A stretch of DNA of 46,415 nt, taken from IMG/VR virus record IMGVR_UViG_3300042506_000275, positions 1 through 46,415 of that record; one strand, given 5' to 3'. Below, one piece after another: positions 9,440 through 40,638 of the stretch. The notes under the pieces were generated by a model that saw only the letters and a program-made list of their open reading frames with translations, was not told the DNA's origin and searched no databases. Source of the stretch: a virus. The translations under genes were made by a program, and so were the position numbers. Within the stretch, counting starts at the first letter, position 1; each line of letters begins with the position of its first letter.

Positions 9440-9703
9440 TTATCGTTCTACCAATGCAATCCAATCTTGATGCACCATATCATTACCATCGTATCCTTGT
9501 CCTTTGTTTTGTGTTCTGTCCCACAAAACACGATCTCCAACACAGATATCTTCAGTAAGTATACCACCAATCGAGACAACTGTCCCCCAAATATACTTAC
9601 TTTTGATTATTTCATTGTATATAATACCCGATTCTGTTTTAACAGAACCTCCGAGATGCGATTTTACACATACCCATTTTCCAAGTGGTTTAAACTTACT
9701 CAT
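9440..9703 (-). CDS. GroES-like co-chaperonin
   Basis: 87 residues from the ATG at 9703, about ten bases after an AAGGAG. The layout is Cpn10-like: FKPLGKWVCVK at the start, a mobile-loop-like segment with ESGIIYNE, then WGTVVSIGG, the EDICVGDRVLWDR strand pair, and a C-terminal DWIALVER. T4 replaces GroES with gp31 to fold its capsid protein; this gene may serve the same purpose, here coupled to DNA polymerase rather than to head genes. It overlaps the upstream methyltransferase by 8 nt. Confidence 0.8.
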   Translation of the reverse strand: MSKFKPLGKWVCVKSHLGGSVKTESGIIYNEIIKSKYIWGTVVSIGGILTEDICVGDRVLWDRTQNKGQGYDGNDMVHQDWIALVER

Positions 9704-10727
9704 TTTCAAATACTCCTTCTAGTGTTTGTGGTATTTCCGTTCTAATACGATCCTCTGCTATCTTAATATATTCAGGATTCAATTCTGTGCCAATAAAATT
9801 TCTATTATGGTTAAGTGATACTATAGCAGTTGTACCGCTTCCTGTAAAGGGATCAAACACAGTTCCTCCAATAGGACATCCTGCCAACACACAAGGTTCA
9901 ATGAGGTCTTTGGGAAATGTAGCGAAGTGTGCACCACGAAACGGTTTAGTTGTCACAGTCCATACAGATCGCTTGTTGCGCTTGCCTGTGTCAACAAAAG
10001 TGTTTCCCACATCTCCTCGTTTAGTTCCTTCTTGAACTGTTGCACCAAACTGTCGGGGTCTTGGTTTGTTCATACTATGTGCAGTTTGTCCTGGCGCACC
10101 ATTAACATTTTTATGCGTATCCGAAACTCCTCGCAACATTCTAGCAGCAGAACTTTCTGCTGCGGGTTCTCGTATTGCTTCGTGGTCAAAGTAATAGTGA
10201 GACTTCTTGCTCAATAGGAAAATATATTCGTGTGCCTTCGTGCATCGGTCTGTCACACTCTCAGGCATCGGATTTGGTTTGTGCCAAATAATATCCTGAC
10301 GAAGATACCATCCGTCTGCTTGAAGTGCAAATGCAACACGCCACGGAATGCCTATAAGATCTTTTGTTTTTATTCCTACACCTTCAAAATTGCGATGCGG
10401 AGTCAAAAATTCTTTTGTCCCACGATTTGATGATTGCTTGTCGCTTTTTGTGTTATGTTCTTTAACACTGTGTGCATAACTATCCCCCAAATTCAACCAC
10501 ACCGTGCCATCATCACGAAGAATACGACGAACTTCACGAAACACTTCTACCATTTTTTGAATATAGGATTCGGGTGTTTGTTCTTGTCCTATTTCTTCTG
10601 TTCCTCCTTGATAATCACGAAGACCGAAATAAGGAGGACTCGTAATACAAGTTTGAACGCATCCCACAGGCATTGTCTTCATTCCTGCAATGCAATCTCC
10701 TAGTATAATTTTATGCGTGTTGATCAT
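9696..10727 (-). CDS. DNA methyltransferase, N6-adenine/N4-cytosine type (beta class)
   Basis: 343 residues from the ATG at 10727 (MINTHKIILGDC); the longer frame to 10865 runs into the upstream gene and lacks the family start. The catalytic motif IV ITSPPYFGL is at ~28-36 and the AdoMet-binding motif FDPFTGSGTT near 291-300. This order, with the target-recognition region between them (~130-275), defines beta-class MTases. Asn/Asp-Pro-Pro-Tyr types methylate exocyclic amines; SPPY is often, but not only, N4-cytosine. It overlaps the preceding MTase by 17 nt. No cognate restriction enzyme is visible, so it is probably an orphan protecting or marking phage DNA. Confidence 0.9.
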   Translation of the reverse strand: MINTHKIILGDCIAGMKTMPVGCVQTCITSPPYFGLRDYQGGTEEIGQEQTPESYIQKMVEVFREVRRILRDDGTVWLNLGDSYAHSVKEHNTKSDKQSSNRGTKEFLTPHRNFEGVGIKTKDLIGIPWRVAFALQADGWYLRQDIIWHKPNPMPESVTDRCTKAHEYIFLLSKKSHYYFDHEAIREPAAESSAARMLRGVSDTHKNVNGAPGQTAHSMNKPRPRQFGATVQEGTKRGDVGNTFVDTGKRNKRSVWTVTTKPFRGAHFATFPKDLIEPCVLAGCPIGGTVFDPFTGSGTTAIVSLNHNRNFIGTELNPEYIKIAEDRIRTEIPQTLEGVFENE

Positions 10728-11481
10728 TGGTTTGCTTTCGTTTTTCGTTCCATTCTTCAAATAATAAAATCTGTTTGCTTGACAACTCTGATCCAACATA
10801 GGAAAGATTGCGGTTGATACACGCCTTCGCAGTTGTACCGATCCCAATAAAGTTATCATATACAAGAGCGGTTGGTTGAGCGTAAATACTTAAAAGTTTT
10901 TCGGCGAACTCTGTAGAGAAAGTCGCTTTATTCAGATCGTTGCTACCATCGTTGTTTTTTGCTTCAATGAAATTGTCCACCAAATCAAAATACTTCTGTC
11001 CGTTTGTTCCAACCTTGAACGATTTGTTTGTTGTGAAAGTGTCTAATGTCTTCTCTCTACAGAACACATAAACAAACTCACAAATTCTCCTACACCTATT
11101 GGGAGATGCAGGATGAGGAATAGCAGTAGGTTTCTTCCATACAATAGTATCCGCAATTGTGAATGAAGTATTGTTGCAAATGGTTGAGACAAGATGATAT
11201 GGCAAGGCAGGATTCTCAATTGAATATGAGAAGTTGAATAACACACAACCATTCTCCACAAGAACTGCATCATATCCTTGAAACACATTGGTGATGAAAT
11301 CAAGATATTCGTCTTGGGTTTTCCAATCATCATACCCATCATACCGAAAAGACTTGTCTGCATATCCTCCTTTGCGAGGAGTCATATTGTATGGAGGAGA
11401 TGTCAGCACGACATCTACTTGCTGTTGCATTTCAGGTCTCTTCATTGTCAACAGACAATCTTCATTGAAGATGATGTTCAT
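10711..11481 (-). CDS. Second beta-class DNA methyltransferase
   Basis: 256 residues from the ATG at 11481, which overlaps the upstream stop as ATGA. Motif IV LTSPPYNMT is at ~26-34 and the AdoMet motif near ~209-217 is DNFIGIGTT, slightly changed from DPFxGSGTT; NPP-type helix features follow. The recognition region is short. It is unlike the neighbouring MTase outside the motifs, so the two probably recognise different sites. It lies in the same translationally coupled string as the two acyltransferase-like genes upstream. Confidence 0.88.
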   Translation of the reverse strand: MNIIFNEDCLLTMKRPEMQQQVDVVLTSPPYNMTPRKGGYADKSFRYDGYDDWKTQDEYLDFITNVFQGYDAVLVENGCVLFNFSYSIENPALPYHLVSTICNNTSFTIADTIVWKKPTAIPHPASPNRCRRICEFVYVFCREKTLDTFTTNKSFKVGTNGQKYFDLVDNFIEAKNNDGSNDLNKATFSTEFAEKLLSIYAQPTALVYDNFIGIGTTAKACINRNLSYVGSELSSKQILLFEEWNEKRKQTNDQHA

Positions 11482-12125
11482 ATAAGAAACTCTCCAAGTG
11501 TTGTTTTTCTGATAATGGTAGGATCGTCGTATTGATACAAGTTGATTTTGCGTTTGCTTGTCTGCTTCCATGTGTTGGTGTGAGAAATTCCCAAACGATC
11601 ACCAACATGATTCCAATTCATTGCATTCCAAAATATATTTGATTCCAAATCTTCAGCGCAACCACAACCAAAGTCATGGCAACCAATGCTTGCACCATAG
11701 GCAACAACATTTGCTAATAGATTTCGCCCTCTCTCAAATTTTCTAGCATCGGATTGAATACAAATTTGTGCTATTTTTCCTCTACGATCTTTGCTTCTAA
11801 AATTTCCAAAAGAAGCAAGAACAAATCCAACAAGATCGCTGTTGTTTGTGCAAACCCACATACGATCATTGCACACATTCGACCATCGTTTACCTGTTTT
11901 TATTCCTGTGATTGCTGCTGTGTAAGCAGGTTTAGGAATGAATCCCAATGAGTGCGCTTCTTTTTTAGTTAAATCCAAAATATACGGAACATCTTCTACT
12001 GTTGCAGGACGAACATCGTCACCATTGGACGAACCAACAACATATAATTTATTGTTAGGTGTTATGAGTTTCGAGCATTGTTCGCCTGTCAAACCAAAAG
12101 AAACTATTGGAATAATATTACTCAT
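11478..12125 (-). CDS. GNAT-family acyltransferase-like protein
   Basis: 215 residues; the ATG overlaps the stop of the Mom-like gene (ATGA). A GNAT core is visible at ~38-180: DVRPATVEDVPYILDL at the start, the motif A region GKIAQICIQ...RGRNLLANVVAYG with the acyl-CoA-binding arginine/glycine turn, then SNIFWNAMNWNHVGDR near the end of the fold. A short basic tail follows. Substrate unknown. Its position between a Mom-like gene and a DNA methyltransferase suggests a role in base modification, but a protein or small-molecule substrate is possible. Confidence 0.75.
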   Translation of the reverse strand: MSNIIPIVSFGLTGEQCSKLITPNNKLYVVGSSNGDDVRPATVEDVPYILDLTKKEAHSLGFIPKPAYTAAITGIKTGKRWSNVCNDRMWVCTNNSDLVGFVLASFGNFRSKDRRGKIAQICIQSDARKFERGRNLLANVVAYGASIGCHDFGCGCAEDLESNIFWNAMNWNHVGDRLGISHTNTWKQTSKRKINLYQYDDPTIIRKTTLGEFLI

Positions 12126-12877
12126 TCAAATGCTTCTTCTAGTGTGTTTTTTACCACCGGCGCAATACATTTTGGACAAGGATACTGCTTGCCGAATCTA
12201 GCGTCTGTAACAGTTTTAGTTCCACCGCAACAATCGTATTGTTTGGTATCAGTTTTTTTCGGATAACTTTGCTCGCCGTACAAGCACTTCAAATCTTTCG
12301 CCATAATGTAAGCGTATCTGTGCTTTTGAGTTCTATTGATCCATACGCCTTGTTTATCTTTTGTTGCGCCACGAGGATTTACTTTCCATTCGCCATTCCT
12401 TTCACAATAAAAGAAATCACTTTTCTTGTCGGTCAATCCATAATATTTGAAATTACATACTTGATATATGCTTCCTGCGTGTCTGCTGTCGTCTGCTAAA
12501 GTTATAAGTGCTTTTACACCTTGTCGCTTCAAAAATCGTATACTGTTTCCTAAAAGATAAGAAGTTGCATTAGTTCCATTAAGTTCAGGTAACACACACA
12601 ACCGACTCAATTCCATTACTGTTTGATCGGAATTCTCTAATCCAAACCAACCTTTCAGAGCAACATTACCTTGTGGATTCGTCATAGTTGCCACACCCAC
12701 CAACTGATTTGTTTCTGTGTAATACAAACCATAAGAAAATTTGGAGAAGAATCTTGCATCTCCCAAATAATGATGTTGCCTGATAAAGTCATATGCCACT
12801 TTTTTATCTATTTGTTTAATACTAAAAATAGAGTTTGCTTTAACTTCTCTTGCAATGAATTTCTGCAAATTCATCAT
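12122..12877 (-). CDS. Mom-like DNA-modifying acyltransferase-fold protein
   Basis: 251 residues from ATG 12877, one base after the SpeD-like stop. It matches the pattern of phage Mu Mom relatives: FIRQHHYLGDARF near the start, ELSRLCVLPEL (~89-99), then ALITLADDSRHAGSIYQ (~123-139) followed by NFKYYG. Mom has a GNAT-like fold and converts adenine in DNA to N6-carbamoylmethyladenine, blocking many restriction enzymes. The C-terminus adds Cys pairs (DCCGG and PCPKC) that could bind zinc; as far as I know this is not part of Mu Mom. The homology call rests on motifs. Chemistry on this phage's DNA is inferred. Confidence 0.78.
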   Translation of the reverse strand: MMNLQKFIAREVKANSIFSIKQIDKKVAYDFIRQHHYLGDARFFSKFSYGLYYTETNQLVGVATMTNPQGNVALKGWFGLENSDQTVMELSRLCVLPELNGTNATSYLLGNSIRFLKRQGVKALITLADDSRHAGSIYQVCNFKYYGLTDKKSDFFYCERNGEWKVNPRGATKDKQGVWINRTQKHRYAYIMAKDLKCLYGEQSYPKKTDTKQYDCCGGTKTVTDARFGKQYPCPKCIAPVVKNTLEEAFE

Positions 12878-12878
12878 T

Positions 12879-13280
12879 TTATCCACTAATATCGCCATAT
12901 CCTGTGCCACGAACAAAATAATGTTCTTCTACTTTGTCAAACCCAAAGCACTCTCGTGCATAATCAAGAATAATCGTCTTATCAAACCGATTACAAGAAT
13001 AAACATCAAGAGTAATAAATCGTTTGGGTTCCATAGAATGAATTTGAATGCCACTTTCTATAAGAGGAACCCAACCACTTACTCCTGCTTTATCGGGATA
13101 CATTTCATATCCATTTTTAATTGGACCATGCATTACTACGGGTTGTGACATACGAGTCATGCCGATCTTGTCTACTACTCGTTCCAAAAACCTGTAATGT
13201 AGTTCCAAGTCATCGGCTGCTCCGACACGACAATTGTACATATCAAGATAATAAGAGTAACCAAAGGGAGTATTGCTCAT
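12879..13280 (-). CDS. speD: S-adenosylmethionine decarboxylase-like protein (SpeD type)
   Basis: 133 residues from ATG 13280. The layout is that of small prokaryotic AdoMet decarboxylases: GYSYYLDMYNC strand, DLELHYRFLERVV helix, GVSGWVPLIESGIQIHS (~66-82) and ITLDVYSC (~89-96). The self-cleavage pair Glu75-Ser76, the later His81 and the Cys96 all appear kept, so an active pyruvoyl enzyme is plausible. It would make decarboxylated AdoMet, the aminopropyl donor for spermidine. Some marine T4-like phages carry speD as a metabolic gene; here it lies inside a DNA-modification cluster. The ATG sits 7 nt after a -10 box, with no Shine-Dalgarno. Confidence 0.82.
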   Translation of the reverse strand: MSNTPFGYSYYLDMYNCRVGAADDLELHYRFLERVVDKIGMTRMSQPVVMHGPIKNGYEMYPDKAGVSGWVPLIESGIQIHSMEPKRFITLDVYSCNRFDKTIILDYARECFGFDKVEEHYFVRGTGYGDISG

Positions 13281-13286
13281 ATGCAT

Positions 13287-13314
13287 AGTATACACCAAAT
13301 TATCAGGATGTCAA
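13287..13314 (-). promoter_or_regulatory. Sigma70-like promoter placing speD on a leaderless mRNA
   Basis: Minus-strand TTGACA (13309-13314), 16 nt, TATACT (13287-13292). The -35 overlaps the stop codon of the upstream gene. The ATG of the SpeD-like gene begins exactly 7 nt downstream of the last base of the -10, where transcription should start. It would drive speD-mom-GNAT-MTase-MTase-groES-43. Confidence 0.75.
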
Positions 13315-13670
13315 CTGTTTTCTTTAATATTTGAAGATTCTATTATTTTATTTTGATCTTCTTTATCTTTAATATATGCGGCGAGCAAAACCATATAATT
13401 TATAACATCCACACAAGTGTCTGCAAAAGACTCATCCTTTACATTCATCTTGCCACTTTGCAAAAAAGAAGATAATCTGCTCATTTTATCTGTTAATCTT
13501 ACCATAAATCCTGCTTCTGTTTTACATATTCCCATTGCTTCTACTCTTGTAAAATTAGCAAAAGGTTCAATGCCATCTCTTCCTGCATAGTCTCTATTTT
13601 TTAGACTCATTAAATCTTTTGCTTCTCCACAAAGAGTACCGTGAAACTTTAATAATTCATCTCTTGTCAT
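13311..13670 (-). CDS. DUF1599 / Nmad1 (nucleotide modification associated) protein
   Basis: 119 residues. The signature of this family is visible: KNRDYAGRDGIEPFANF (~24-40), then MGIC, GFMVRLTDKMSRL (~54-66) and a final DTCVDVINYMVLLAAY helix. The family is all-alpha and is named for its association with nucleotide and base modification loci in phages and bacteria; its biochemical activity is not settled, to my knowledge. It lies between the PLP-fold gene (18 nt upstream) and the SpeD-like gene, which fits the named association. Confidence 0.8.
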   Translation of the reverse strand: MTRDELLKFHGTLCGEAKDLMSLKNRDYAGRDGIEPFANFTRVEAMGICKTEAGFMVRLTDKMSRLSSFLQSGKMNVKDESFADTCVDVINYMVLLAAYIKDKEDQNKIIESSNIKENS

Positions 13671-13688: not shown

Positions 13689-14426
13689 TTAAGCTCCGAC
13701 ATTCCAAAACATTGAATTTTTCGACGCATATTTTCTTATAAATTTCCACGCCTTTGCATCATATGTTGGAGCAGAAGGAAATGGAGGTTCGTCTTCTGCG
13801 TTTACAGGACGACTAAACTCTAATTCGCATTTATATAATTTTGCTCTTCCTAATTGTTTAAGTCCCATAGCGTGTCCAACAGAAACACAATGAAATTCTG
13901 CTTGCGGCCAAGCCATCTGAAGTCCTCTAGTCAACGTTCCGCTCGATCCAACTGTCCACACTTCATTTGGAGTGATACACATCTCTTGAGCAACAGCGCA
14001 AATATTATGAAGCACTTCATCTGTTCCAAATCCAATAGGAAATAATTTTCTTTCTTTTGAATTCTCTGCCACATAATCTCTTGCTCTTTTTTCTGTAACA
14101 GATAACATTCCCATTTCTACCATTCGAATATCTGCTCCAAATGCCCTTGCCTTTATTTGATACGGATGAAGATTTTCTAATTTTCTTTTTGCCATAAACA
14201 AGGTACATTTTTTATTAAAATGAGAACATACTCTTGCCAAAGCAATTTGTGCATATCCTGTAGCAGGAGAAGATCCGTATACCATTTCGTTTCCTGGAAA
14301 ATCACGAACTAAAGATTGAATAAATCTAGTCTTTGATCCTCCTTCTAGCAGATCATCACGAACAACATATATTCCTTCGTGCATCTCTACAATCGGAGGA
14401 GCATTTAACTGATCATCAAACATCAA
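13689..14426 (-). CDS. PLP-dependent enzyme, ACC deaminase / cysteine desulfhydrase fold
   Basis: 245 residues, shorter than bacterial ACC deaminases (~340). Fold-type II signs: VRDDLLEGGSKTRF (~22-35), with Lys32 as the likely PLP lysine; SSPATGYAQIALARV (~52-66); and a phosphate-binding loop VGSSGTLTRGL (~159-169). In this family PLP enzymes deaminate or eliminate amino acids, or act in beta-replacement. The gene overlaps the methyltransferase-like gene upstream by 4 nt (ATGA), suggesting that they work together. Substrate unknown. A DNA-bound or nucleotide-bound amino acid is one option; loss of some family regions means altered chemistry is likely. Confidence 0.75.
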   Translation of the reverse strand: MMFDDQLNAPPIVEMHEGIYVVRDDLLEGGSKTRFIQSLVRDFPGNEMVYGSSPATGYAQIALARVCSHFNKKCTLFMAKRKLENLHPYQIKARAFGADIRMVEMGMLSVTEKRARDYVAENSKERKLFPIGFGTDEVLHNICAVAQEMCITPNEVWTVGSSGTLTRGLQMAWPQAEFHCVSVGHAMGLKQLGRAKLYKCELEFSRPVNAEDEPPFPSAPTYDAKAWKFIRKYASKNSMFWNVGA

Positions 14427-15691
14427 AAAAAAGATTCCAAAGTAGAAGGAGCAAGAGTTTTATATTCCGTAGTTCCTTTTCTAAAGACCCACACAGGTTC
14501 AATAAATATTTGTTCTAATTCTGTTGTATTTGGACGAGCCATCATTCTCATTCCAATTTTACCAATATAATTAGAATCTTTTAATTGCTTAAATTCTTCT
14601 ACCATATCATCGCAAAGATTGAAACGAGTGCCTTGTCGTGATCGTGGTTCAATAATATTAATCATCATATATCCCTTTTGCTTAATAGTATCCCATACTT
14701 GTTTTGTAACCGCAAAAAAGAAATCATTTTTCCAAGCATCAAACGAGGAATATCTGTTCCAAGATTGATCACAAGTTTTTTCTGTATCAGATGCATATTT
14801 TTCTGTTTCAAAATAAGGAGGAGAGGTAAAGTAAAAATCAAAAGTATCTTTGTATTCGCTCCAATCCACATCTTCTGCCGGCTTTCGCCATATCTTCACG
14901 GTCTTTTTTCCAATACATTCAAAGTAATCTTCTGATTCGTGTATCACAGGTTCGACACCAAGCAATCGTTCATAAGCAACACATTGATTTAGATACACAG
15001 CAAAGACATCAGGATTTGGATCACAACCCACATACAATGTCGTACACGGAGTTCCATAGAATCCTGCGAGTCTATCTCCCCATCCACAGGAAGTATCTAA
15101 TACATTTCGTGCTTTGTGCTTTTCATAAAGTGCTTTTGCTACTGATGGTTTAAATTGTGTTGCTGTGTATGTTCCTAAACGAAATGCAGCTCTAAAAGCA
15201 CCTCCATCAAGATCAGAGTTTTCCATAACTCCTTCTCTCCAAAAAATCCAATTCATCTTGGATAATTTTTCTTGATCGTTCCATATCTCTAGTGGAGCTG
15301 GACTAGAGTTTGATCCACACTTCATTCTATTTTCTTGTTGAAAGAAATTACTAATCTCATTAAATACATGAGACTTGTCAATTACTCCGAGAGGAGAATC
15401 GGAATACTTGTACTTGTAATCATATCTTTCTTTTACAACAGGAAAATGCTTGTATTGATTCATATGCGAACGAGCAGAAAACTTTCTAAATGACTCTCCC
15501 ATTTCATTTTCTGTGATAGGAATAAGTGGAAACGGAATATTATTTGTATGAATATACTCTGCAAGAGCATCACGAATTTCGTCTTTTGAATATGTTGCAA
15601 TTAATTGTTTCCATTTTTCTGTGGATACGCAAGGCAATCCTGTTGCATCGCAATTGCCTGCAAAGAACTGTACAATTTCCGAACACACCAT
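14423..15691 (-). CDS. AdoMet-dependent DNA methyltransferase-like protein with N-terminal extension
   Basis: 422 residues. A ~160-residue N-terminal part of unknown kind is followed by a Rossmann MTase: motif I VLDTSCGWGDRLAG (~197-210), acidic VGCDPNPD (~221-228), and catalytic YFTSPPYFETEKY (~287-299). Motif I comes before SPPY, so the order is opposite to the two beta-class MTases downstream. SPPY points to an exocyclic amine on DNA, but residues after it are unusual and a donor other than AdoMet cannot be excluded. It follows dut after one base and overlaps the PLP-fold gene as ATGA. Confidence 0.8.
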   Translation of the reverse strand: MVCSEIVQFFAGNCDATGLPCVSTEKWKQLIATYSKDEIRDALAEYIHTNNIPFPLIPITENEMGESFRKFSARSHMNQYKHFPVVKERYDYKYKYSDSPLGVIDKSHVFNEISNFFQQENRMKCGSNSSPAPLEIWNDQEKLSKMNWIFWREGVMENSDLDGGAFRAAFRLGTYTATQFKPSVAKALYEKHKARNVLDTSCGWGDRLAGFYGTPCTTLYVGCDPNPDVFAVYLNQCVAYERLLGVEPVIHESEDYFECIGKKTVKIWRKPAEDVDWSEYKDTFDFYFTSPPYFETEKYASDTEKTCDQSWNRYSSFDAWKNDFFFAVTKQVWDTIKQKGYMMINIIEPRSRQGTRFNLCDDMVEEFKQLKDSNYIGKIGMRMMARPNTTELEQIFIEPVWVFRKGTTEYKTLAPSTLESFF

Positions 15692-16461: not shown

Positions 16462-16892
16462 CGAGTTACCTTTGGTGAAACAATAAATCTTCCATATATT
16501 AATTCTTCTGTGGTGACTCCCGCGGTTATATCCAAAGAATATTGCCACGATCCTGCTCTAACGAATCCCATAGAAGTAGCATCTGCTGTTATAAGAATAC
16601 CTCCTGTAAGTCCTGCACCAACATCACTCTTATTCATTCCAATATTTCCACTACCAGAAACACCAGATCTTCCTGTGACACCTGCTAAAAAATCTCCAGT
16701 AGATCCTCCGTGTGTAAGACCCGAAGTAGTAATTTCTAATAATTTATAAGCAGAATCAGCATTTGCTCGCACTTGAAATCGAGCAGTGTATGGAGATAAA
16801 TTTACACTTGCTCCAGTTGTTCCAATGTACTCTATATGAAACATAAAGGTTGAGTATTGTTGTGCTTCTATATCGTATGCGGCTGATGACAT
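16458..16892 (-). CDS. Virion structural protein, resembles the N-terminal domain of baseplate/receptor-binding proteins
   Basis: 144 residues, beta-rich: a strand pair around LSPYTARFQVRA (~37-48), a Gly/Ser-rich loop region (~58-95), and a closing WQYSLDITAG...ELIYGRFIVSPKVTR. The 'YTAR-Q-R ... YSL-I ... L--G-f-V-pevTr' layout is like BppU_N-type domains of baseplate and tail adaptor proteins; this is pattern similarity only. It overlaps the glycosyltransferase upstream by one base. A structural gene in a sugar cluster suggests that the sugars may end up on it or on another virion part. Confidence 0.6.
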   Translation of the reverse strand: MSSAAYDIEAQQYSTFMFHIEYIGTTGASVNLSPYTARFQVRANADSAYKLLEITTSGLTHGGSTGDFLAGVTGRSGVSGSGNIGMNKSDVGAGLTGGILITADATSMGFVRAGSWQYSLDITAGVTTEELIYGRFIVSPKVTR

Positions 16893-18088
16893 TAATTTCT
16901 CCGTTTTTTGAAAGTCTTTTGTTGTATGTAGGGTTTTTCTTTTCCTTGTAAATAGTTAGGATTTAATTTTAGATTTTCTTCTATTTTAGAGGTATATGCT
17001 GCAAGATTTGCTTGAACTCTAGGAATTTCAGACTCTGGTACTCTATTTTCCTTTAATAGAAGTTCACACGCTTGTTTTCCTCCAATAAAATCATGAACAT
17101 AAAAAGCACAAGCAGATAATTCGTCTAAACACATCCACTTATAAATGCCGGTATCAATAAAAAGAATATCCTGTATAGGATACGGCAAAGAACACGCCAT
17201 TTTTGCAAACATATACGCCGCTCTTTGTTGATTTTTTGAACGCAAATATCGTGCAATAATATGAAGTGGTTCTGCTCGACACGGACGATAGTCATATGCA
17301 TTTAACAATTTTTGCTGAATATCTCCCCAATTTGAGTCTGGTTTATTCATTGCAATTAATGCCACTCGAAATAAAGAATAATAGCATTCTTCTTCCCATC
17401 CACCCAATTCTACTCGACGAAGATATGCCGCTTCTGACTTTTCCCATTGTTGCGAATCAAAATATGATTGTGCAAGATAAAATTGATATCGAGAATTAGT
17501 TGGATCTTTTGCTATTTCTACTTCTAATAATTCTGCATCTTTTGAATATTTTTCTACCTGACTAATATTTACATTTCTTGCTCCGAGAGTACGAGCTTCT
17601 AAATGATATTCTCCAAATATTTGTGCTTGTGTAAGTGGTTGTCTATTTGGACAAGCTGCATATTCGTGTAGAACACCGGCATACATCCATCCAATACCAG
17701 TCTTAAAAATCTGATTTCTCCACCATACACAAGTTTCTCTTCCGCACTTAATTGCATAAGCATCATTATTCAAATTTTTTCCATTTGGATAGGCAAATTC
17801 ACCAAGAATGCGGTCGTCCGCATCAATCATCCAAGCATAGTCTGCTTTTCCATCACATAGAGTCAATGCTTCAGTACGATTGTGACCGAAATCAATCCAA
17901 GGTCTTTCTATTAATTCTCCAGGAATTCCCTTCTCTGCAAAATAGTTTCGAATTAAATCCTGCGTTCCATCTGTAGATCCAGTATCAACTACAACCCAAT
18001 AGTCGATATGTTTCCAAATAGAATCTAGGCATTCATGTATGATGTGCGTTTCGTTTTTAACGATCATTGAGAGACATACTGTAGACAT
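16892..18088 (-). CDS. Glycosyltransferase family 2 with TPR-like C-terminus
   Basis: 398 residues. The N-terminal GT-A domain starts VCLSMIVKNETHIIHECL, then VVVDTGSTDGTQDLI (~33-47) and the metal-binding MIDADDR (~87-93). The C-terminal half (~170-380) is helical, with TPR-like repeats (SRYQFYLAQSYFDSQQWEKSE). This GT2-TPR layout is common in phage and bacterial glycan loci. It probably adds a sugar to a virion protein or an oligosaccharide; acceptor unknown. AGGAG precedes the ATG, 20 nt after the epimerase stop. Confidence 0.85.
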   Translation of the reverse strand: MSTVCLSMIVKNETHIIHECLDSIWKHIDYWVVVDTGSTDGTQDLIRNYFAEKGIPGELIERPWIDFGHNRTEALTLCDGKADYAWMIDADDRILGEFAYPNGKNLNNDAYAIKCGRETCVWWRNQIFKTGIGWMYAGVLHEYAACPNRQPLTQAQIFGEYHLEARTLGARNVNISQVEKYSKDAELLEVEIAKDPTNSRYQFYLAQSYFDSQQWEKSEAAYLRRVELGGWEEECYYSLFRVALIAMNKPDSNWGDIQQKLLNAYDYRPCRAEPLHIIARYLRSKNQQRAAYMFAKMACSLPYPIQDILFIDTGIYKWMCLDELSACAFYVHDFIGGKQACELLLKENRVPESEIPRVQANLAAYTSKIEENLKLNPNYLQGKEKPYIQQKTFKKRRN

Positions 18089-18108
18089 TTCACAATTCTC
18101 CTATACGG

Positions 18109-19041
18109 TTATTTATGCTCGGCGATCCAAGATTCCAAAGAAACTTTGGGATTCCATCCTAATTGTATATTTGCTTTGGATGCGTTGGCAAGTGTAATAC
18201 GAGATTCTCCAATACGAGCAGGAATATTTATAGTATTCCCACCTAATAAAGAAGCAATTTCGTTCACAGAATGATTCTTGCCTGTTCCAATATTATAAGT
18301 TTGTCCCCATTCCCATATACGATATTCTATTTCATTCTGAATCGTATACTGTGGTGGAGAGAATTGTGATGCTAGAACATTTGCTTCTACGACATCGCTT
18401 ACATGAGTAAAATCACGGCGTTGATCTCCATCGCCTACAATCGTCATAGGCTCACCTGCGGCTCGTTGACGCAGAAAAATACCAATCACAGGAGCATATT
18501 GTCCTTTGAGTGGTTGACGCTCTCCGTACACATTGAAATATCGGAAAACGACTGTTTCCAAACCAAACAGTCTTGAATACATTTTACACATTTCTTCTCC
18601 CGCAGTCTTTGTAACAGAATACGGATTCAGGCAATCGTTCGACATTGTTTCTACGAGCGGTGGAGTATTTTTCATGCCATACGCTGCAGAAGTAGACGAA
18701 TACATGACTCGTCCTACTCCTGCCTCTCTAGAGCATTGTAGTACGGTTGCTGTTCCCAACACATTTGTATGAACTGCCTTGAGAGGATTTTCGATGCACG
18801 GCTGAATTCGTGCTTCGGCAGCAAGATGAAAAACTCTTTCTATCCCATCATAAAGTGGACGGGTAGACTCGTAATCTGTGACATCGTACTTGTAGTTTTT
18901 GGCTGCGGGATTCCAATAAAACTGTTCGTTGGCATCAGATGATTCGTTGTCGATCACCGTGACTTCGTGACCGTCTTTGACTAGACGATCCACCAAATTT
19001 GATCCAATAAATCCTGCTCCGCCTGTTACTAATGTTTTCAT
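18109..19041 (-). CDS. NAD-dependent sugar epimerase/dehydratase (extended SDR, GalE-like)
   Basis: 310 residues. The Rossmann loop TGGAGFIGSNL (~6-16), LAAEARIQP (~72-80), the catalytic Ser region SSTSAAYG (~115-122) and YSVTK (~141-145, YxxxK) are in place, as is RYFNVYG (~165-171). It most resembles UDP-glucose/UDP-hexose 4-epimerases. The ATG overlaps the Glf stop (ATGA), so a natural pathway is UDP-Glc to UDP-Galp to UDP-Galf. Confidence 0.88.
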   Translation of the reverse strand: MKTLVTGGAGFIGSNLVDRLVKDGHEVTVIDNESSDANEQFYWNPAAKNYKYDVTDYESTRPLYDGIERVFHLAAEARIQPCIENPLKAVHTNVLGTATVLQCSREAGVGRVMYSSTSAAYGMKNTPPLVETMSNDCLNPYSVTKTAGEEMCKMYSRLFGLETVVFRYFNVYGERQPLKGQYAPVIGIFLRQRAAGEPMTIVGDGDQRRDFTHVSDVVEANVLASQFSPPQYTIQNEIEYRIWEWGQTYNIGTGKNHSVNEIASLLGGNTINIPARIGESRITLANASKANIQLGWNPKVSLESWIAEHK

Positions 19042-20126
19042 TGTTGTAATTCCTTTTCACTTCTAATTAAAGCAGATCCAACCACTTGGTGCATGTCATA
19101 ATATTTGTAATCTGCCAAACGACCGCCTAATATGTATTTGCTATCATCTATCCTATTCTTATATTTTTGTAATAGTTTATTATTTTTTTCGTCATTCATT
19201 GGATAAAATTTCTCTTTGGTTTTATCCCATGCTTGTGGGTATTCACGAGTAATAATTGTATGTTTTTGTTTTCCAAATTCAAAATGTTTATGTTCACATA
19301 TACGAGTAAATGGTACACTTTCTTCTGTGTAATTGAACACAGCATTTCCTTGAAAATCCCCCATCATCTTCTCATGCTCAAATCGAAGACTACGCCATTC
19401 TAAATGACCACAATCATAATCAAAAAATTCATCAATTGCTCCAGTGTACACAATCTTTCTTGCCATGGAATCAAAGAAGTTTTTATCTTTTAGATAATCA
19501 ACATGAAGTAATATTGGAATATTATTCAGTAATTTTTCAAAGAGTGAAGTGTATCCTCCTATCGGTATTCCTTGATACCTATCCTCAAAATAATTATCAT
19601 CATATGTGAGTCGTATTGGAAGTCTTTTTATGATAGAAGAAGGCAAATCTTTTGGATCACATCCCCATTGCTTTTTCGTATATCCATATATGAATTTGTT
19701 GTATAATTCTTCTCCTACTTGAGAAAGTATCCATTCTTCTAAATTTGAAGGATTAGCACACGGAATCCTAACAGTTTCTAATTTGGCACTAGCCTCTTCA
19801 GGAGTACAAACCCCCCACAATTGATATAATGTAAAAAGATTGATTGGGAAAGAGTAAACCTTATCCGAATGATGTACCTTTGGACGATATACAAAATGAT
19901 TAAACTTAGTCCACCTGTTCATATATTCCCACACCATTTCGCTGCTTGTGTGAAATATATGTGGTCCATATTCGTGGACATGAATACCGTTTTCATTTCT
20001 GGTGTAACAATTTCCCCCTATGTGAGATCGCTTATCAACGATCAGACATTTAGCACCATAATCCGTCATTTGTCTAGCAAATATCGAGCCAAATAGACCA
20101 GAACCAACGATTAGATAATCAAGCAT
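19038..20126 (-). CDS. glf: UDP-galactopyranose mutase
   Basis: 362 residues, typical for Glf. FAD-binding VGSGLFGSIFARQ (~7-19), GGNCYT (~37-42), HEYGPHIFHTS (~50-60), KQWG (~152-155), YTGAIDEFFDY (~218-228) and the C-terminal GRLADYKYYDMHQVV carrying conserved Arg and Tyr. It interconverts UDP-galactopyranose and UDP-galactofuranose. With the adjacent epimerase it implies that galactofuranose is made during infection and used by the glycosyltransferases encoded upstream. Confidence 0.95.
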   Translation of the reverse strand: MLDYLIVGSGLFGSIFARQMTDYGAKCLIVDKRSHIGGNCYTRNENGIHVHEYGPHIFHTSSEMVWEYMNRWTKFNHFVYRPKVHHSDKVYSFPINLFTLYQLWGVCTPEEASAKLETVRIPCANPSNLEEWILSQVGEELYNKFIYGYTKKQWGCDPKDLPSSIIKRLPIRLTYDDNYFEDRYQGIPIGGYTSLFEKLLNNIPILLHVDYLKDKNFFDSMARKIVYTGAIDEFFDYDCGHLEWRSLRFEHEKMMGDFQGNAVFNYTEESVPFTRICEHKHFEFGKQKHTIITREYPQAWDKTKEKFYPMNDEKNNKLLQKYKNRIDDSKYILGGRLADYKYYDMHQVVGSALIRSEKELQQ

Positions 20127-20127
20127 A

Positions 20128-20775
20128 TCAATGTCCTCGGTCGTTGATTATGGTTCTTTCTAGACGACTTGGTTCGTGTGTTTTATGAGTCATAATATAA
20201 TACCATAATTGTTCAAACATTATCCCCAATCGCAAATCATCAAGGAGAACCTGTTCCATCAACAGTCCATGACATTTTTCATAGAATTCAAGTGAATTAC
20301 GAAGGATTGACTCTTTGGGTACAACAAATTGCGCCGACATGGTATGTTCCATTCTATCTGGTAAAGGAAGATCTATAGCGTACCAAGAAGAACAAATATG
20401 CAACCATACACTATTGTCAGGACAACCTTTGTATAACACATTCCTGTAGTACGGATTATTCAGAGACCAAAATTCTTCCCCCTTATATTCTTGAAGGGCT
20501 TCGAGTATGGTCTTGTCCTGATGCCATGCCGTATCGTGTCCATGACAGAAAGCAACATGATTTGGAAGATTGTGATAGTTATCTATAATATATTTTAAAT
20601 AAGACGAAGATTCTTTTCCTTTATTTGCAAGAACAACCACACGATCTTTGGGTATTAAATATTTGGAAACTTCCTCTTGGTTTTTAGAATAAACAAAGAA
20701 ATCATATTCGGTTTGATTCAACAACCAATTAAGATTTTCGGAATAATGAGATGCTAGAATGAGTGGCTTTATCAT
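20128..20775 (-). CDS. DUF3431-like protein, probable glycan gene
   Basis: 215 residues from the ATG at 20775, which overlaps the upstream stop as ATGA (a start at 20787 is also open). The segment HVAFCHGHDTAWHQ (~74-87) and the following SLNNPYYRNVLYKG resemble DUF3431 proteins, which occur in glycan-related clusters. No catalytic role is established, to my knowledge. The start KPLILASHYSENLNWL suggests an alpha/beta fold. Confidence 0.6.
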   Translation of the reverse strand: MIKPLILASHYSENLNWLLNQTEYDFFVYSKNQEEVSKYLIPKDRVVVLANKGKESSSYLKYIIDNYHNLPNHVAFCHGHDTAWHQDKTILEALQEYKGEEFWSLNNPYYRNVLYKGCPDNSVWLHICSSWYAIDLPLPDRMEHTMSAQFVVPKESILRNSLEFYEKCHGLLMEQVLLDDLRLGIMFEQLWYYIMTHKTHEPSRLERTIINDRGH

Positions 20776-21206
20776 ATATTTTTCCATTTAATTGGGTGAT
20801 CGGTACATATTCCATATATTTCACAAGGAAGAATTGTTTCTTCCGGTGTTCCATGAATGACCGTTATCCCATTTTGTTGATAGTTTCTTGGAAAACACCA
20901 AGGAATTCTTTTACTGGTTAATGTGAATCGGTCATTCTCGTGCCAAAAACAATGCGCTCCGATTTTTAACATTTCAGATAACGCCTCTTTATTTTTTGCA
21001 TGACACCAAATCTTATGATTCACTAAAAATAACTTATCAATTTCATATGATGGCTTGTCATGACCAAGATAAAACCTACCATCAGCCCACCAAACATCAA
21101 TCTCAACATCATACCCATTATCTATGGCTGTTTGAATATATGATGGGTGATTTTCCTGAGATGGAATTCTTCCGTTTAAATTTCCTCTATGTGATATAAT
21201 TTTCAT
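20772..21206 (-). CDS. Glycerophosphodiester phosphodiesterase-like protein, short
   Basis: 144 residues against ~240 for bacterial GDPDs. It begins with the family pattern: ISHRGNLNG (~4-12), ENHPSYIQTAIDNGYDVEIDVW (~18-39, read as two motifs) and YLGHD (~46-50), giving the His-Arg, Glu/Asp and second His expected of the PI-PLC-like TIM barrel. The second half is shortened. Its neighbours are sugar genes, so the substrate may be a phosphodiester in a polysaccharide rather than a lipid head group. ATGA overlaps on both sides. Confidence 0.7.
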   Translation of the reverse strand: MKIISHRGNLNGRIPSQENHPSYIQTAIDNGYDVEIDVWWADGRFYLGHDKPSYEIDKLFLVNHKIWCHAKNKEALSEMLKIGAHCFWHENDRFTLTSKRIPWCFPRNYQQNGITVIHGTPEETILPCEIYGICTDHPIKWKNI

Positions 21207-38040: not shown

Positions 38041-39538
38041 TGGGTTCTCCTATTTTAATTCGTACCAATCGATAATTGAATCCTTCCGAATCATACAGGC
38101 GCATTCTTTCTTTCATATGCCTATATGTGTGATTTATCCAAGACTTCCAACTTAAATCATCTCCAATATCATATAACCTTGCAACGATTTTATTTTCTGC
38201 TACTCGCAACTGTCTTCCAATACTCTGTAGAACTCGTATTCTAGACTTTGAAGGAGAAGCAAAGATAATATTGTGTAGTCGTTTAACAGAAATTCCTGTA
38301 GAGAAAACTCCATACGAAGCAATGATAATTGCATCTGATTCTGTTTCAACTATTGCTCGTATGCGTTCACGCTCCTTTGCTTCTGTATCTCCGTAAACAA
38401 AAAACACCTTACGTGTAGATGGCACACAAGACTCCATAAGAGTATTTAGTATTTTTCCATGTCCCTCCACGAATTGAAATAATACAAGAGTGTTTCCTTT
38501 AAGAGATTTACACAAATCAACAATGAATTGATTTCTTTCTTTTGATCCCACAATCCATTTCATCTCATCAGGATATTTTGCTCGTTTTGCCATCTCTCTA
38601 ATTTCCGTAGGATAATCCAATACCAAACAATCAATTTTAAGTGGACTGAGAATTTTCTTATCCATAAGTTCTTTTGTTTTTGCTACTTCGTATGCTCGCC
38701 CAAATAATCCTTCAAGAACAAGTTTATGTGTTGTTGTTCCATCAAGTGTTCCTGTTGTTCCTATGCGATAAGGACAAGTTTTTAGTTTCGTCATTATAGC
38801 ACAAAGAGATTTAGATTTAAAGAGATGCGCTTCATCTCCAACAACTGCACCGAATTGTTCAAAATATTTTTCGTTCTGACGAAATATAGATTGCCAAGTA
38901 GAAACAACAACTCGTTTTCCTGTTATCTTTTCTGCTCCACCAAGAATTTTATGACAATTTGCCGTTGCATTCCATTCGTTTGTAGAAGAATAGTCTGCAA
39001 AATCAGAAACCATTTGTTCTACAAGAGAAACTGTAGGAACAACAATTAGTATCTTTTTATTTTTAGGAATTTTATCAAGGTAAAATCGAACAAGAGAATA
39101 CACAATCAAAGACTTTCCTGATGCAGTCGGAGATAAGAGCAAACATCGTTCTTGTTCTAGGGCGTGATGTATTGCTTCTGCTTGATGTTCGTGCAGTACT
39201 AACTTTTTATCTCGTGAATGCACATCAAGAAAATCTTCTACAAATGCTCTTACCTTTTTTGTATCTGCTTTGAATTCAGAACGAATAGGTAGTGCCAAAG
39301 AGTAATTTCTGTCTAGAGCAAATTTTTCAATATAATATATTAATCCTGCGTAGATTTCTTGTGTGTGAATATTATAAAGACGAATTTCTCCATCCCACAT
39401 CTTACTACGATATGCTGGCATATACTGATATCCGGGGACCTTAAAAGCGAAAAAATCAGAAAGTTCACGAGCAATTCCTCTTTCGCAAACTACTCGCAAA
39501 TAAACAGAATTAATCAAACTTACATCAAGATCAATCAC
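38003..39538 (-). CDS. uvsW: UvsW DNA/RNA helicase
   Basis: 511 residues (T4 503) from GTG 39538, preceded by TGGGGG. The N-terminal ~110 residues form the UvsW-specific part (GYQYMPAYRSKMWDGEIRL). SF2 motifs: SPTASGKS (~136-143), VPTVSLVEQM (~168-177), GDEAHLF (~234-240), GTTGTLDG (~258-265), ASYGVFSTGISV and QSIGRQLRVAEN. It remodels stalled forks and unwinds R-loop origins in the switch to recombination-dependent replication. Confidence 0.96.
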   Translation of the reverse strand: MIDLDVSLINSVYLRVVCERGIARELSDFFAFKVPGYQYMPAYRSKMWDGEIRLYNIHTQEIYAGLIYYIEKFALDRNYSLALPIRSEFKADTKKVRAFVEDFLDVHSRDKKLVLHEHQAEAIHHALEQERCLLLSPTASGKSLIVYSLVRFYLDKIPKNKKILIVVPTVSLVEQMVSDFADYSSTNEWNATANCHKILGGAEKITGKRVVVSTWQSIFRQNEKYFEQFGAVVGDEAHLFKSKSLCAIMTKLKTCPYRIGTTGTLDGTTTHKLVLEGLFGRAYEVAKTKELMDKKILSPLKIDCLVLDYPTEIREMAKRAKYPDEMKWIVGSKERNQFIVDLCKSLKGNTLVLFQFVEGHGKILNTLMESCVPSTRKVFFVYGDTEAKERERIRAIVETESDAIIIASYGVFSTGISVKRLHNIIFASPSKSRIRVLQSIGRQLRVAENKIVARLYDIGDDLSWKSWINHTYRHMKERMRLYDSEGFNYRLVRIKIGEPNGTKKEIKHTSI

Positions 39539-39597
39539 TATAAACCCCCAAAGAACGAACTAGGATTGATTTGCAGAGGTTCTTATGAGCAATACTA

Positions 39598-40032
39598 TCA
39601 TTGACCATTGACAAAGCGTCTCCATTCAATAGCATTGCGTATTTTCCAATGTCTATTATTTAATTCTTTGACTATTTCTTCTAATAAAGAAATCTTTTCT
39701 CTTTGATAAAGACACTTTTGTCTTGCTTTTATAATATTAGGATCAGCATTAAGATACAAAGGAATATCTTGTCTTAATATTTTAAGAGTAAATGGTTCTA
39801 ATTTTCTAACGAGTAGTTCTTCTCTAGACATCTTTCCTGTATAATACTCCCACCATATTCTTTCAAATATTGATAATTCGCTTTCATATTGAGAAAGAAC
39901 TAATCGTTCATCTGTTAGAAAATTAAGATACTTGCTGTGTAGTTGAGGAATCTTTAGGGATTCCGTATCTAATGCAGTTTGATCAACTAAAGTATCTCTT
40001 TCTAATTCTTTTCTAATATCATCAAGGGTCAT
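39598..40032 (-). CDS. uvsY: UvsY recombination mediator
   Basis: 144 residues from ATG 40032 (T4 137). GGAG lies eight bases before it; an upstream in-frame start at 40053 is discarded as it falls in the promoter -10. It opens TLDDIRKELERDTLVDQTALD, like T4's DLQEELKKDVFIDSTKL, and has a central YYTGKMSREEL and helical C-terminus. It loads UvsX on gp32-covered DNA. Followed by 59 nt without any gene, then uvsW. Confidence 0.93.
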   Translation of the reverse strand: MTLDDIRKELERDTLVDQTALDTESLKIPQLHSKYLNFLTDERLVLSQYESELSIFERIWWEYYTGKMSREELLVRKLEPFTLKILRQDIPLYLNADPNIIKARQKCLYQREKISLLEEIVKELNNRHWKIRNAIEWRRFVNGQ

Positions 40033-40052
40033 TATAATTTCTCCGTGACACA

Positions 40053-40080
40053 ACTATACACGAGATTCTATAAAAGTCAA
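40053..40080 (-). promoter_or_regulatory. Sigma70-like promoter of the uvsY-uvsW unit
   Basis: Minus-strand TTGACT (40075-40080), 16 nt, TATAGT (40053-40058), with TTGACTTTT extended -35. Predicted start near 40046, 14 nt before the uvsY ATG. Confidence 0.72.
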
Positions 40081-40110
40081 GGGATGTATTGAATTTTCTA
40101 AAATAAAATA

Positions 40111-40638
40111 TTATAAAATTTCAATATCATATGTTCTATAAGAAAATGAACAGGTTGCTTGCAGGGGTTCTGGATCCATTCCTGTTGAAGTAAAATCTAA
40201 AGCAGATAAAGTTATAGGATAGAGTGAATTGAATGTAACATTTATTTTAGGATTTTTTGAACTATTCAAAATGAGAAGATTTGCTGTTGCATATTGTTCG
40301 TTGTCGGGACGATATTCGTCAAACGAATCTACATTTGTTGTAGAACGCATCCATTTATATATTTCCATCCAATTATTAATTCCTTCATCTACCACAAAAG
40401 TTATTGTTAATTCATCAAATGTGAGTTTGGATGGACTTTGTATAGTAGAAAATCTTGTAGGAAATTGAACTTGGGAAAGAGTTAAACTAGGCAATGATGC
40501 AGTCTGACAAAAGTAATTAACACCAGGCAGTCTAGAAATACTAAACTGATAATATGTTGGTAGTAATGGATTAATTCTCTCAGGATATTTTGCTAAAATA
40601 TCCATTGAAATTCCTGCAAAAGTAAAAGGATTTGCCAT
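40111..40638 (-). CDS. Tail-tube terminator/completion protein (gp3-like, gp19 fold)
   Basis: 175 residues (T4 gp3 176, gp19 163). Tube-protein-like text: YYQFSISRLPGVNYFCQTASLP (split motif, ~27-48), FPTRFSTIQSPSKLTFDELTI region (~60-80), FVVDEGINNWMEIYKWM (~82-98) and a closing beta strand pair. In marine T4-like phages gene 3 lies between 23 and uvsY, as here; by fold alone a second gp19 tube protein cannot be excluded. No clear ribosome site; it starts 13 nt after the terminator T run that follows gene 23. Confidence 0.78.
   Translation of the reverse strand: MANPFTFAGISMDILAKYPERINPLLPTYYQFSISRLPGVNYFCQTASLPSLTLSQVQFPTRFSTIQSPSKLTFDELTITFVVDEGINNWMEIYKWMRSTTNVDSFDEYRPDNEQYATANLLILNSSKNPKINVTFNSLYPITLSALDFTSTGMDPEPLQATCSFSYRTYDIEIL

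Follow-up and report, generated by a model that had tools for sequence, protein, structure and literature searches.

The window analysed here is the whole of a 46.4 kb viral record from IMG/VR (IMGVR_UViG_3300042506_000275). On its minus strand it encodes a methyltransferase-like (MTase-like) protein of the SPPY family and, overlapping the end of that gene, a PLP enzyme. The features of the pair, and of the other genes considered in the window, are the following:

14423..15691, minus strand: MTase-like gene, SPPY family; an open reading frame of 422 aa
15062..15097, minus strand: motif I of the MTase-like protein, D199-TSCGWGDR207-LAG (LDTSCGWGDRLAG, D199-G210); R207 is at +8 from the Asp and is partner-diagnostic
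14813..14824, minus strand: catalytic SPPY motif (S290-Y293, TSPPYF), C-terminal to motif I
14421..14426, minus strand: gene junction, reading TTTTTTGATGTTT (TTGATG)
13689..14426, minus strand: PLP gene, encoding a PALP-type (fold type II) enzyme of the M6-PLP family; 245 aa from TTG, 244 aa from the ATG at 14423; PF00291 E 2.4e-4, phrog_7093 E 5.4e-40
14331..14333, minus strand: Lys32, predicted Schiff-base lysine (GGSKTR); invariant, aligned with the GGNK lysine of DcyD
13935..13949, minus strand: phosphate-binding loop GSSGT (residues 160-164), from the viral and DcyD alignments
13746..13763, minus strand: YDAKAW (222-227), family signature; YDLKAW in M6 and, by eye, like VYTGKAM of DcyD
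13311..13670, minus strand: phrog_1485 protein (2.1e-16), directly downstream of the PLP gene
12879..13298, minus strand: AdoMet decarboxylase homologue (PF02675 2.5e-15)
12122..12916, minus strand: DNA-modification protein resembling Mom (PF25680 1.1e-26), part of the same run of genes
11478-12125: GNAT, after the Mom-like gene and overlapping it
9440-9709: small co-chaperonin of the Cpn10 type (PF00166 1.9e-8), immediately upstream of the gene for the family B DNA polymerase
16892-20787: group of sugar genes, for a glycosyltransferase of family 2, an NAD-dependent epimerase, a UDP-galactopyranose mutase and a DUF3431 protein

An earlier, sequence-only reading had the two genes overlapping as ATGA. 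They do overlap, but the junction reads TTGATG: with an ATG start, the PLP gene shares one base with the TGA stop of the MTase-like gene (TGATG), and with a TTG start the overlap with that stop is of 4 bases (TTGA). Note that a 4-nt overlap is the commonest arrangement in relatives, a gap of -4 being found at 67/99 MTase-to-PLP junctions. The gene run of the pair also includes the phrog_1485 protein, the AdoMet decarboxylase homologue, the Mom-like protein, the GNAT and two more SPPY MTases. The phrog_1485 protein matches DUF1599 (nucleotide modification associated domain 1; PF07659, 0.0015) below the cut-off.

The MTase-like protein and the PLP enzyme

The MTase-like protein consists of a helical N-terminal region of ~160 aa followed by a class I Rossmann domain. 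Its AlphaFold (AF2) model (pLDDT 77.7) has a class I MTase core, and the PDB neighbours of the model are class I MTases, including the N2-guanine tRNA MTases Trm11 and Trm1. In Pfam the protein has no match above cut-off and none to PF01555, whose cut-off is passed by the ParB-linked MTases of P2559S, ZRG1, Mae-JY30, Pam4 and ZS04 but not by that of Vincenzo; the PHROG 'DNA methyltransferase' matches it weakly (2.4e-6). The window protein combines the class I fold and the SPPY motif by which N4-C/N6-A DNA methyltransferases are recognised. Its N-terminal ~160 residues had been described as of unknown fold, and our results agree with this: the region has no Pfam match and was modelled as helices, with low confidence at residues 126-178.

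As had also been read from the sequence, motif I precedes SPPY in this protein. The accompanying claim, that the two other MTases of the window have the reverse order, was borne out in MT3 (9696-10865), in which SPPY comes first and FDPFTGSGTT last, but not in MT2, in which a motif I of the FDPFTGSGTT form was searched for and not found. Motif I of the MTase-like protein has Arg at +8, in contrast to the GSGTT form of MT3. Its relatives, from viral contigs as well as from cultured phages, have the pattern D-x-[FSC]-x-G-x-x-x-R followed by (S/C)PPY-x-x-x-E-x-Y. The closest of these (loci L058-L065, 54-68%) have no PLP gene within the short flanking stretches examined.

The PLP protein scores 21 bits against PF00291, less than the gathering score of 35 bits, which is reached by its relatives in Vincenzo (40.6), in the ZS04 fusion (40.1) and in M6 (39.7). 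Its match to phrog_7093, labelled threonine dehydratase, covers profile positions 14-279 of 279. The AF2 model (pLDDT 88.3, pTM 0.86) has the two-domain PALP fold, with a Foldseek probability of 1.00 against DCyD, ACC deaminase and TrpB; the best PDB matches are a D-cysteine desulfhydrase and an ACC deaminase homologue (4d8t, 1j0a), with a TM by query length of about 0.74-0.79. Moreover, hhalign aligned the protein with E. coli DcyD (E 1.5e-4), placing Lys32 on the GGNK lysine and the two phosphate loops on each other.

The Lys and the phosphate-binding loop that the sequence-only reading had recognised are both present. No variation was seen among 31 aligned viral homologues at K32, R34, E47, S162, G163, Y222-W227, W241 and N242, and K32 is kept in 42/42. 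Since the active-site residues are invariant among these homologues, the second gene is expected to encode an active PLP site; loss of this site, named beforehand as contrary evidence, was not seen, Lys32 and the loop being intact. The protein is indeed shorter than enzymes of the ACC deaminase type, by 83 aa relative to E. coli DcyD (245 versus 328 aa; the claim was of ~100 relative to ACC deaminase), and lacks the full length (about 330 aa) of ACC deaminase and D-cysteine desulfhydrase. The structural comparison upholds a relation of fold to ACC deaminase, not an identity with it. Although D-cysteine desulfhydrase/ACC deaminase is the nearest solved fold, with Lys and phosphate loop aligned, we rejected a plain enzyme of either kind: a sequence search of PDB chains with the window protein gave no significant match, the family is almost confined to contigs of viral or prophage-like character, and it is tied to a conserved partner, a DNA enzyme. 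The M6 PLP enzyme, used as query against PDB sequences, gave nothing useful. In GTDB genomes there were only 15 PLP matches, several of them adjoining genes for ParB and an MTase, an arrangement like that of prophages.

Association of the PLP gene with (S/C)PPY MTases and its relatives in M6 and ViI

An (S/C)PPY MTase lies near the PLP homologue in 169/186 loci: within 300 nt on the same strand in 135, in the same polypeptide in 5, within 2.5 kb in 26, and farther away or on the opposite strand in 3. Pairing is close (<=300 nt or one polypeptide) in 140 of the 169 paired loci. Note that the 186 loci are partly non-independent, and that 12 of the 17 without an MTase have short flanks. The association between the two genes is real, conserved and far beyond chance, and the neighbourhood search did not find them widely apart in relatives, the other outcome that had been named as contrary.

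The MTase comes first in the window and in most ParB-linked loci, and the PLP gene comes first in marine phages. In the Erythrobacter phages R6L and ZS04, in loci L066 and L067 and in Pam4, the PLP enzyme is nested in a ParB-MTase, with motif I on one side of it and SCPPY on the other. The PLP proteins of the window and of locus L009 are 72% identical, their MTase partners only 27%; judged by these identities, the MTase partner of the PLP gene has been exchanged. In a tree of 116 MTase domains, at least 4 changes are required for the PLP label.

The PLP family also extends to the thymidine-hypermodification cassette of Pseudomonas phage M6. A PLP profile built without M6 found a single significant M6 ORF, at 39165-40115 (1.2e-16, and 1.6e-15 in a second search), which is a full-length member of phrog_7093 (530 bits). 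This gene begins at the end of the amino acid:DNA transferase (ADDT) gene (PF18724), and a radical-SAM gene comes next; farther along lie the helical domain of a 5-hmdU kinase and a gene of the thymidylate-synthase (hydroxymethylase) type. The same cassette, with the PLP enzyme named, has been described in the M6-like phage SN1 (PMC9476957). The M6 and SN1 enzymes have the FSK/GSK-R, SSGT and PFP..YD.KAW..FWN motifs in common with that of the window. Vi01_182 of Salmonella phage ViI also has the PALP fold (PF00291 2.5e-7), but is a protein of 424 aa; it is a full-length member of phrog_3650, to which gp2 of Mycobacterium phage Vincenzo, an MTase-adjacent PLP gene, belongs as well, and to which the window protein is weakly matched (1.4e-5). 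The M6 and ViI PLP enzymes are said, by Lee et al., to decarboxylate DNA-linked amino acids.

The gene surroundings are different. Whereas the M6 enzyme is encoded in a 5-hmdU cassette, between the ADDT and radical-SAM genes, that of the window has a SAM-dependent (S/C)PPY partner and no 5-hmdU genes were found with it. A Pfam search of the window gave no PF18724, PF18723 or PF00303 (ADDT, HMUDK_hel and the thymidylate-synthase type). An M6-type cassette of amino acid:DNA transferase, 5-hmdU kinase and dUMP hydroxymethylase is thus not found there, and we rejected a 5-hmdU route for the window phage. PF18724 and PF18723, both matched by M6, are also absent from the complete genomes of Mae-JY30, ZS04, Pam4 and Vincenzo. 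A ThyX gene is present in the window.

AdoMet decarboxylase-partnered MTases and motif I

In the Croceibacter phage P2559S, an AdoMet decarboxylase (AdoMetDC) gene overlaps the ParB-MTase gene. A search from this decarboxylase found the MTase family directly upstream of AdoMetDC at most viral loci:

L224-L303, also NC_018276 and OQ504961: AdoMetDC gene that overlaps a ParB-MTase gene at its end (72/80 viral loci)

The ParB-(S/C)PPY MTases of P2559S and of Pseudomonas phage ZRG1 are related to the window class (PHROGs 498 and 12517 in common) and resemble it in forming an overlapping gene pair and in having motif I before SCPPY. They differ in their partner, a pyruvoyl AdoMetDC, and in motif I, where Asp and Phe replace Gly/Trp and Arg. 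The P2559S decarboxylase is bona fide, since it restored spermidine in an E. coli speD mutant; the paper describing it mentions neither the methyltransferase nor DNA modification (PMC9992855). Polyamine synthesis could be the reason for AdoMetDC in P2559S and ZRG1, with a host that could supply the synthase; against this, no spermidine synthase is Pfam-detectable in either phage genome.

Motif I separates the two classes of MTase. Counting positions from its Asp (3 sequences had no readable motif), Arg is found at +8 in 88/88 PLP-partnered MTases with a readable motif, with Gly (67) or Trp (21) at +5, and all of the AdoMetDC-partnered MTases (40/40) have Asp at +5 with Phe or Ile at +8. The window protein has Trp204 and Arg207, and the Asp of the aminopropyltransferase type is absent. 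Three isolates from a collection of annotated phages, outside the viral-contig sets, agree with the rule linking motif and partner: ZRG1, with a canonical AdoMetDC, has FAGDTVFG, Vincenzo, with a PLP partner, has FAGGPVRG, and Pam4, with a nested PLP enzyme, has FAGGSVRG. The AdoMetDC-partnered MTases form a single clade (96/98), and because of this the motif switch counts as one evolutionary event.

A possible meaning of the switch comes from spermidine synthase. In this enzyme, Asp131 of the glycine-rich loop bonds the amine of decarboxylated SAM (dcSAM) (PMC6514230), a role also described for Asp98 (PMC10146546). Counted along GxGxG in our own alignment, the Asp corresponds to +5 of the MTase motif I. 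Spermidine synthase is likewise of the class I fold, and its dcSAM-amine Asp matches that of the AdoMetDC-partnered MTases; unlike the MTase family, it has putrescine as acceptor and no SPPY motif. By analogy with this Asp and with an Arg of CmoX (see below), we infer that in intact SAM the carboxylate would be held by Arg at +8, and that dcSAM would be the donor for the Asp/Phe class. Note that Arg is also present in the partnerless Funu2, LT996078, B054, phiFL3A and L058-L065. Because partnerless relatives (B054, phiFL3A, L058-L065) carry it too, the Arg could be no more than an ancestral feature, and such relatives may be ordinary methyltransferases. If the Arg is instead a marker of 3-amino-3-carboxypropyl (acp) transfer, the partnerless phages would carry untrimmed acp.

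Among the loci examined, both partners, a PLP enzyme and an AdoMet decarboxylase homologue, are present in the window phage and a near-copy only. In the alignment, the window homologue has the cleavage Ser, the His and the Cys, and HSMEP replaces HT(F/Y)PE, the motif whose Pro marks a true AdoMetDC (PMC10407285). With this Pro replaced, a true AdoMetDC is improbable, and we set the protein aside as an unlikely source of dcSAM, the window MTase moreover having Arg and not Asp/Phe. The homologue is possibly an arginine/ornithine decarboxylase or an enzyme otherwise shifted in substrate.

A candidate two-step base hypermodification and its alternatives

We propose that the pair carries out a two-step hypermodification of DNA bases, in which acp would be transferred from SAM and then decarboxylated on the DNA by the PLP enzyme, a proposal that we regard as evenly balanced between right and wrong. 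In the first step, the SPPY protein would flip a DNA base and transfer to its exocyclic amine (N4-C or N6-A) the acp group of SAM instead of the methyl, Arg207 of motif I holding the SAM carboxylate. In the second, modelled on the M6 homologue, the PLP enzyme, sitting beside the MTase, would decarboxylate the DNA-bound alpha-amino acid to give a cationic 3-aminopropyl base. In the sister clade, AdoMetDC would trim free SAM first and the MTase, with Arg changed to Phe/Ile and Asp added, would transfer aminopropyl directly, so that both routes would end in a 3-aminopropyl base. The wider proposal, that phages have two convergent routes to acp/aminopropyl bases and that the two-residue switch in motif I tells which one is used, is put forward tentatively, as slightly less likely than not. 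The modification would likely serve to shield phage DNA from host nucleases.

The pairing with (S/C)PPY MTases, the homology to the M6 enzyme, the replacement of the partner by AdoMetDC and the switch in motif I all argue for this arrangement. The genes of the 5-hmdU route were not found (all three in the window, the first two also in the four complete genomes), so the amino-acid donor is most likely SAM itself; and as ADDT and the 5-hmdU kinase helical domain are absent from those four genomes, the MTase would be the best candidate for installing the amino-acid group. The sequence-only reading had suggested addition of such a group by the pair, followed by its trimming. The homology of the PLP protein to the M6/ViI enzymes of hypermodified phages makes this the best-supported reading, with ACC deaminase, which had been brought into the comparison, reduced to a relative in fold. 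We found no report in the literature of a DNA chemistry in which a SAM-derived amino acid is attached and its carboxyl then trimmed, and we know of no assayed example of acp or aminopropyl transfer in the (S/C)PPY MTase family. Phage DNA modifications using SAM derivatives were reportedly predicted by Iyer in 2013, so the AdoMetDC-MTase link may already be on record.

A close parallel for a non-methyl, SAM-derived group on DNA is the carboxymethylcytosine of phage S-B43, made by CmoA/CmoX, which are also frequently linked to ParB; CmoX uses an Arg to contact the carboxy-SAM carboxylate (PMC12783734). Unlike the pair, CmoX is a C5-cytosine enzyme with an SPPC motif that uses carboxy-SAM, and its product then undergoes amino-acid ligation with no PLP trimming (PMC12783734).

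Another possibility is that the MTase-like protein only methylates, as ordinary N4-C/N6-A enzymes do, and is merely co-regulated with a PLP enzyme that acts on another group, installed by a different enzyme (a Mom-type product, for example), or that serves metabolism as a desulfhydrase/deaminase. Many MTase relatives, some of them annotated as methylases, have neither a PLP nor an AdoMetDC gene nearby, as this explanation would have it. However, the repeated pairing, the nesting of the PLP enzyme within the MTase domain, the perfect agreement between motif and partner, and the lack of ADDT and HMUDK_hel domains in the complete Mae-JY30, ZS04, Pam4 and Vincenzo genomes make it unlikely. The PLP enzyme could also act on free SAM or a small amino acid, producing a modified cofactor such as dcSAM that the MTase would transfer to DNA. 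The PLP gene does occupy the same slot as AdoMetDC, and carboxy-SAM in CmoA/CmoX provides a precedent for phage DNA enzymes with a modified SAM (PMC12783734). Yet dcSAM from the PLP enzyme would call for the Asp/Phe motif in the MTase, and the Arg found throughout the PLP-partnered class counts against free dcSAM as the product; furthermore, in the cassette of the M6 relative the amino acid is already on the DNA. We consider this possibility quite unlikely. Finally, a non-catalytic PLP fold, serving as scaffold or regulator of the MTase, would fit a protein about 80 residues shorter than DcyD that seems to have lost part of the region closing the active site, but is hardly credible given the invariance of Lys32, the phosphate loop and Y222-K225.

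If acp transfer followed by decarboxylation on DNA is what the pair performs, aminopropylation and aminocarboxypropylation would join the known DNA-base chemistries, and the presence of a working AdoMetDC in phages without spermidine synthase, such as P2559S, would be explained. The M6/ViI PLP enzymes would be connected with far more phages than before, and Arg versus Asp/Phe in motif I would become a sequence rule predicting the donor. Cultured relatives (Vincenzo, P2559S and ZRG1) make this reading testable, one of the hosts being Mycobacterium smegmatis mc2 155. In the window itself, the Mom-like protein and the GNAT could represent a second base-modification activity or provide an acetyltransferase for the amine product.

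Some relatives depart from the paired arrangement. A diverged PLP clade (30-37% identity), represented by six loci, is without an MTase of the (S/C)PPY family, which counts against the proposal:

L105, 3881-4903: diverged PLP clade member
L199, 1151-2131: diverged PLP clade member
L200, 6863-7798: diverged PLP clade member
L202, 2959-3936: diverged PLP clade member
L203, 6878-7786: diverged PLP clade member
L204, 99-992: diverged PLP clade member

The L200 cluster contains a homologue of thymidylate synthase as well as conserved unknown proteins, with phrog_13881 as one common family; it is possibly a further hypermodification cluster. SPPY relatives are also found inside long proteins (L006, 3750-5684; L007, 2931-6620) in uncultured phage records of about 484-485 kb, where the N-terminal regions resemble, by eye, homing endonucleases.
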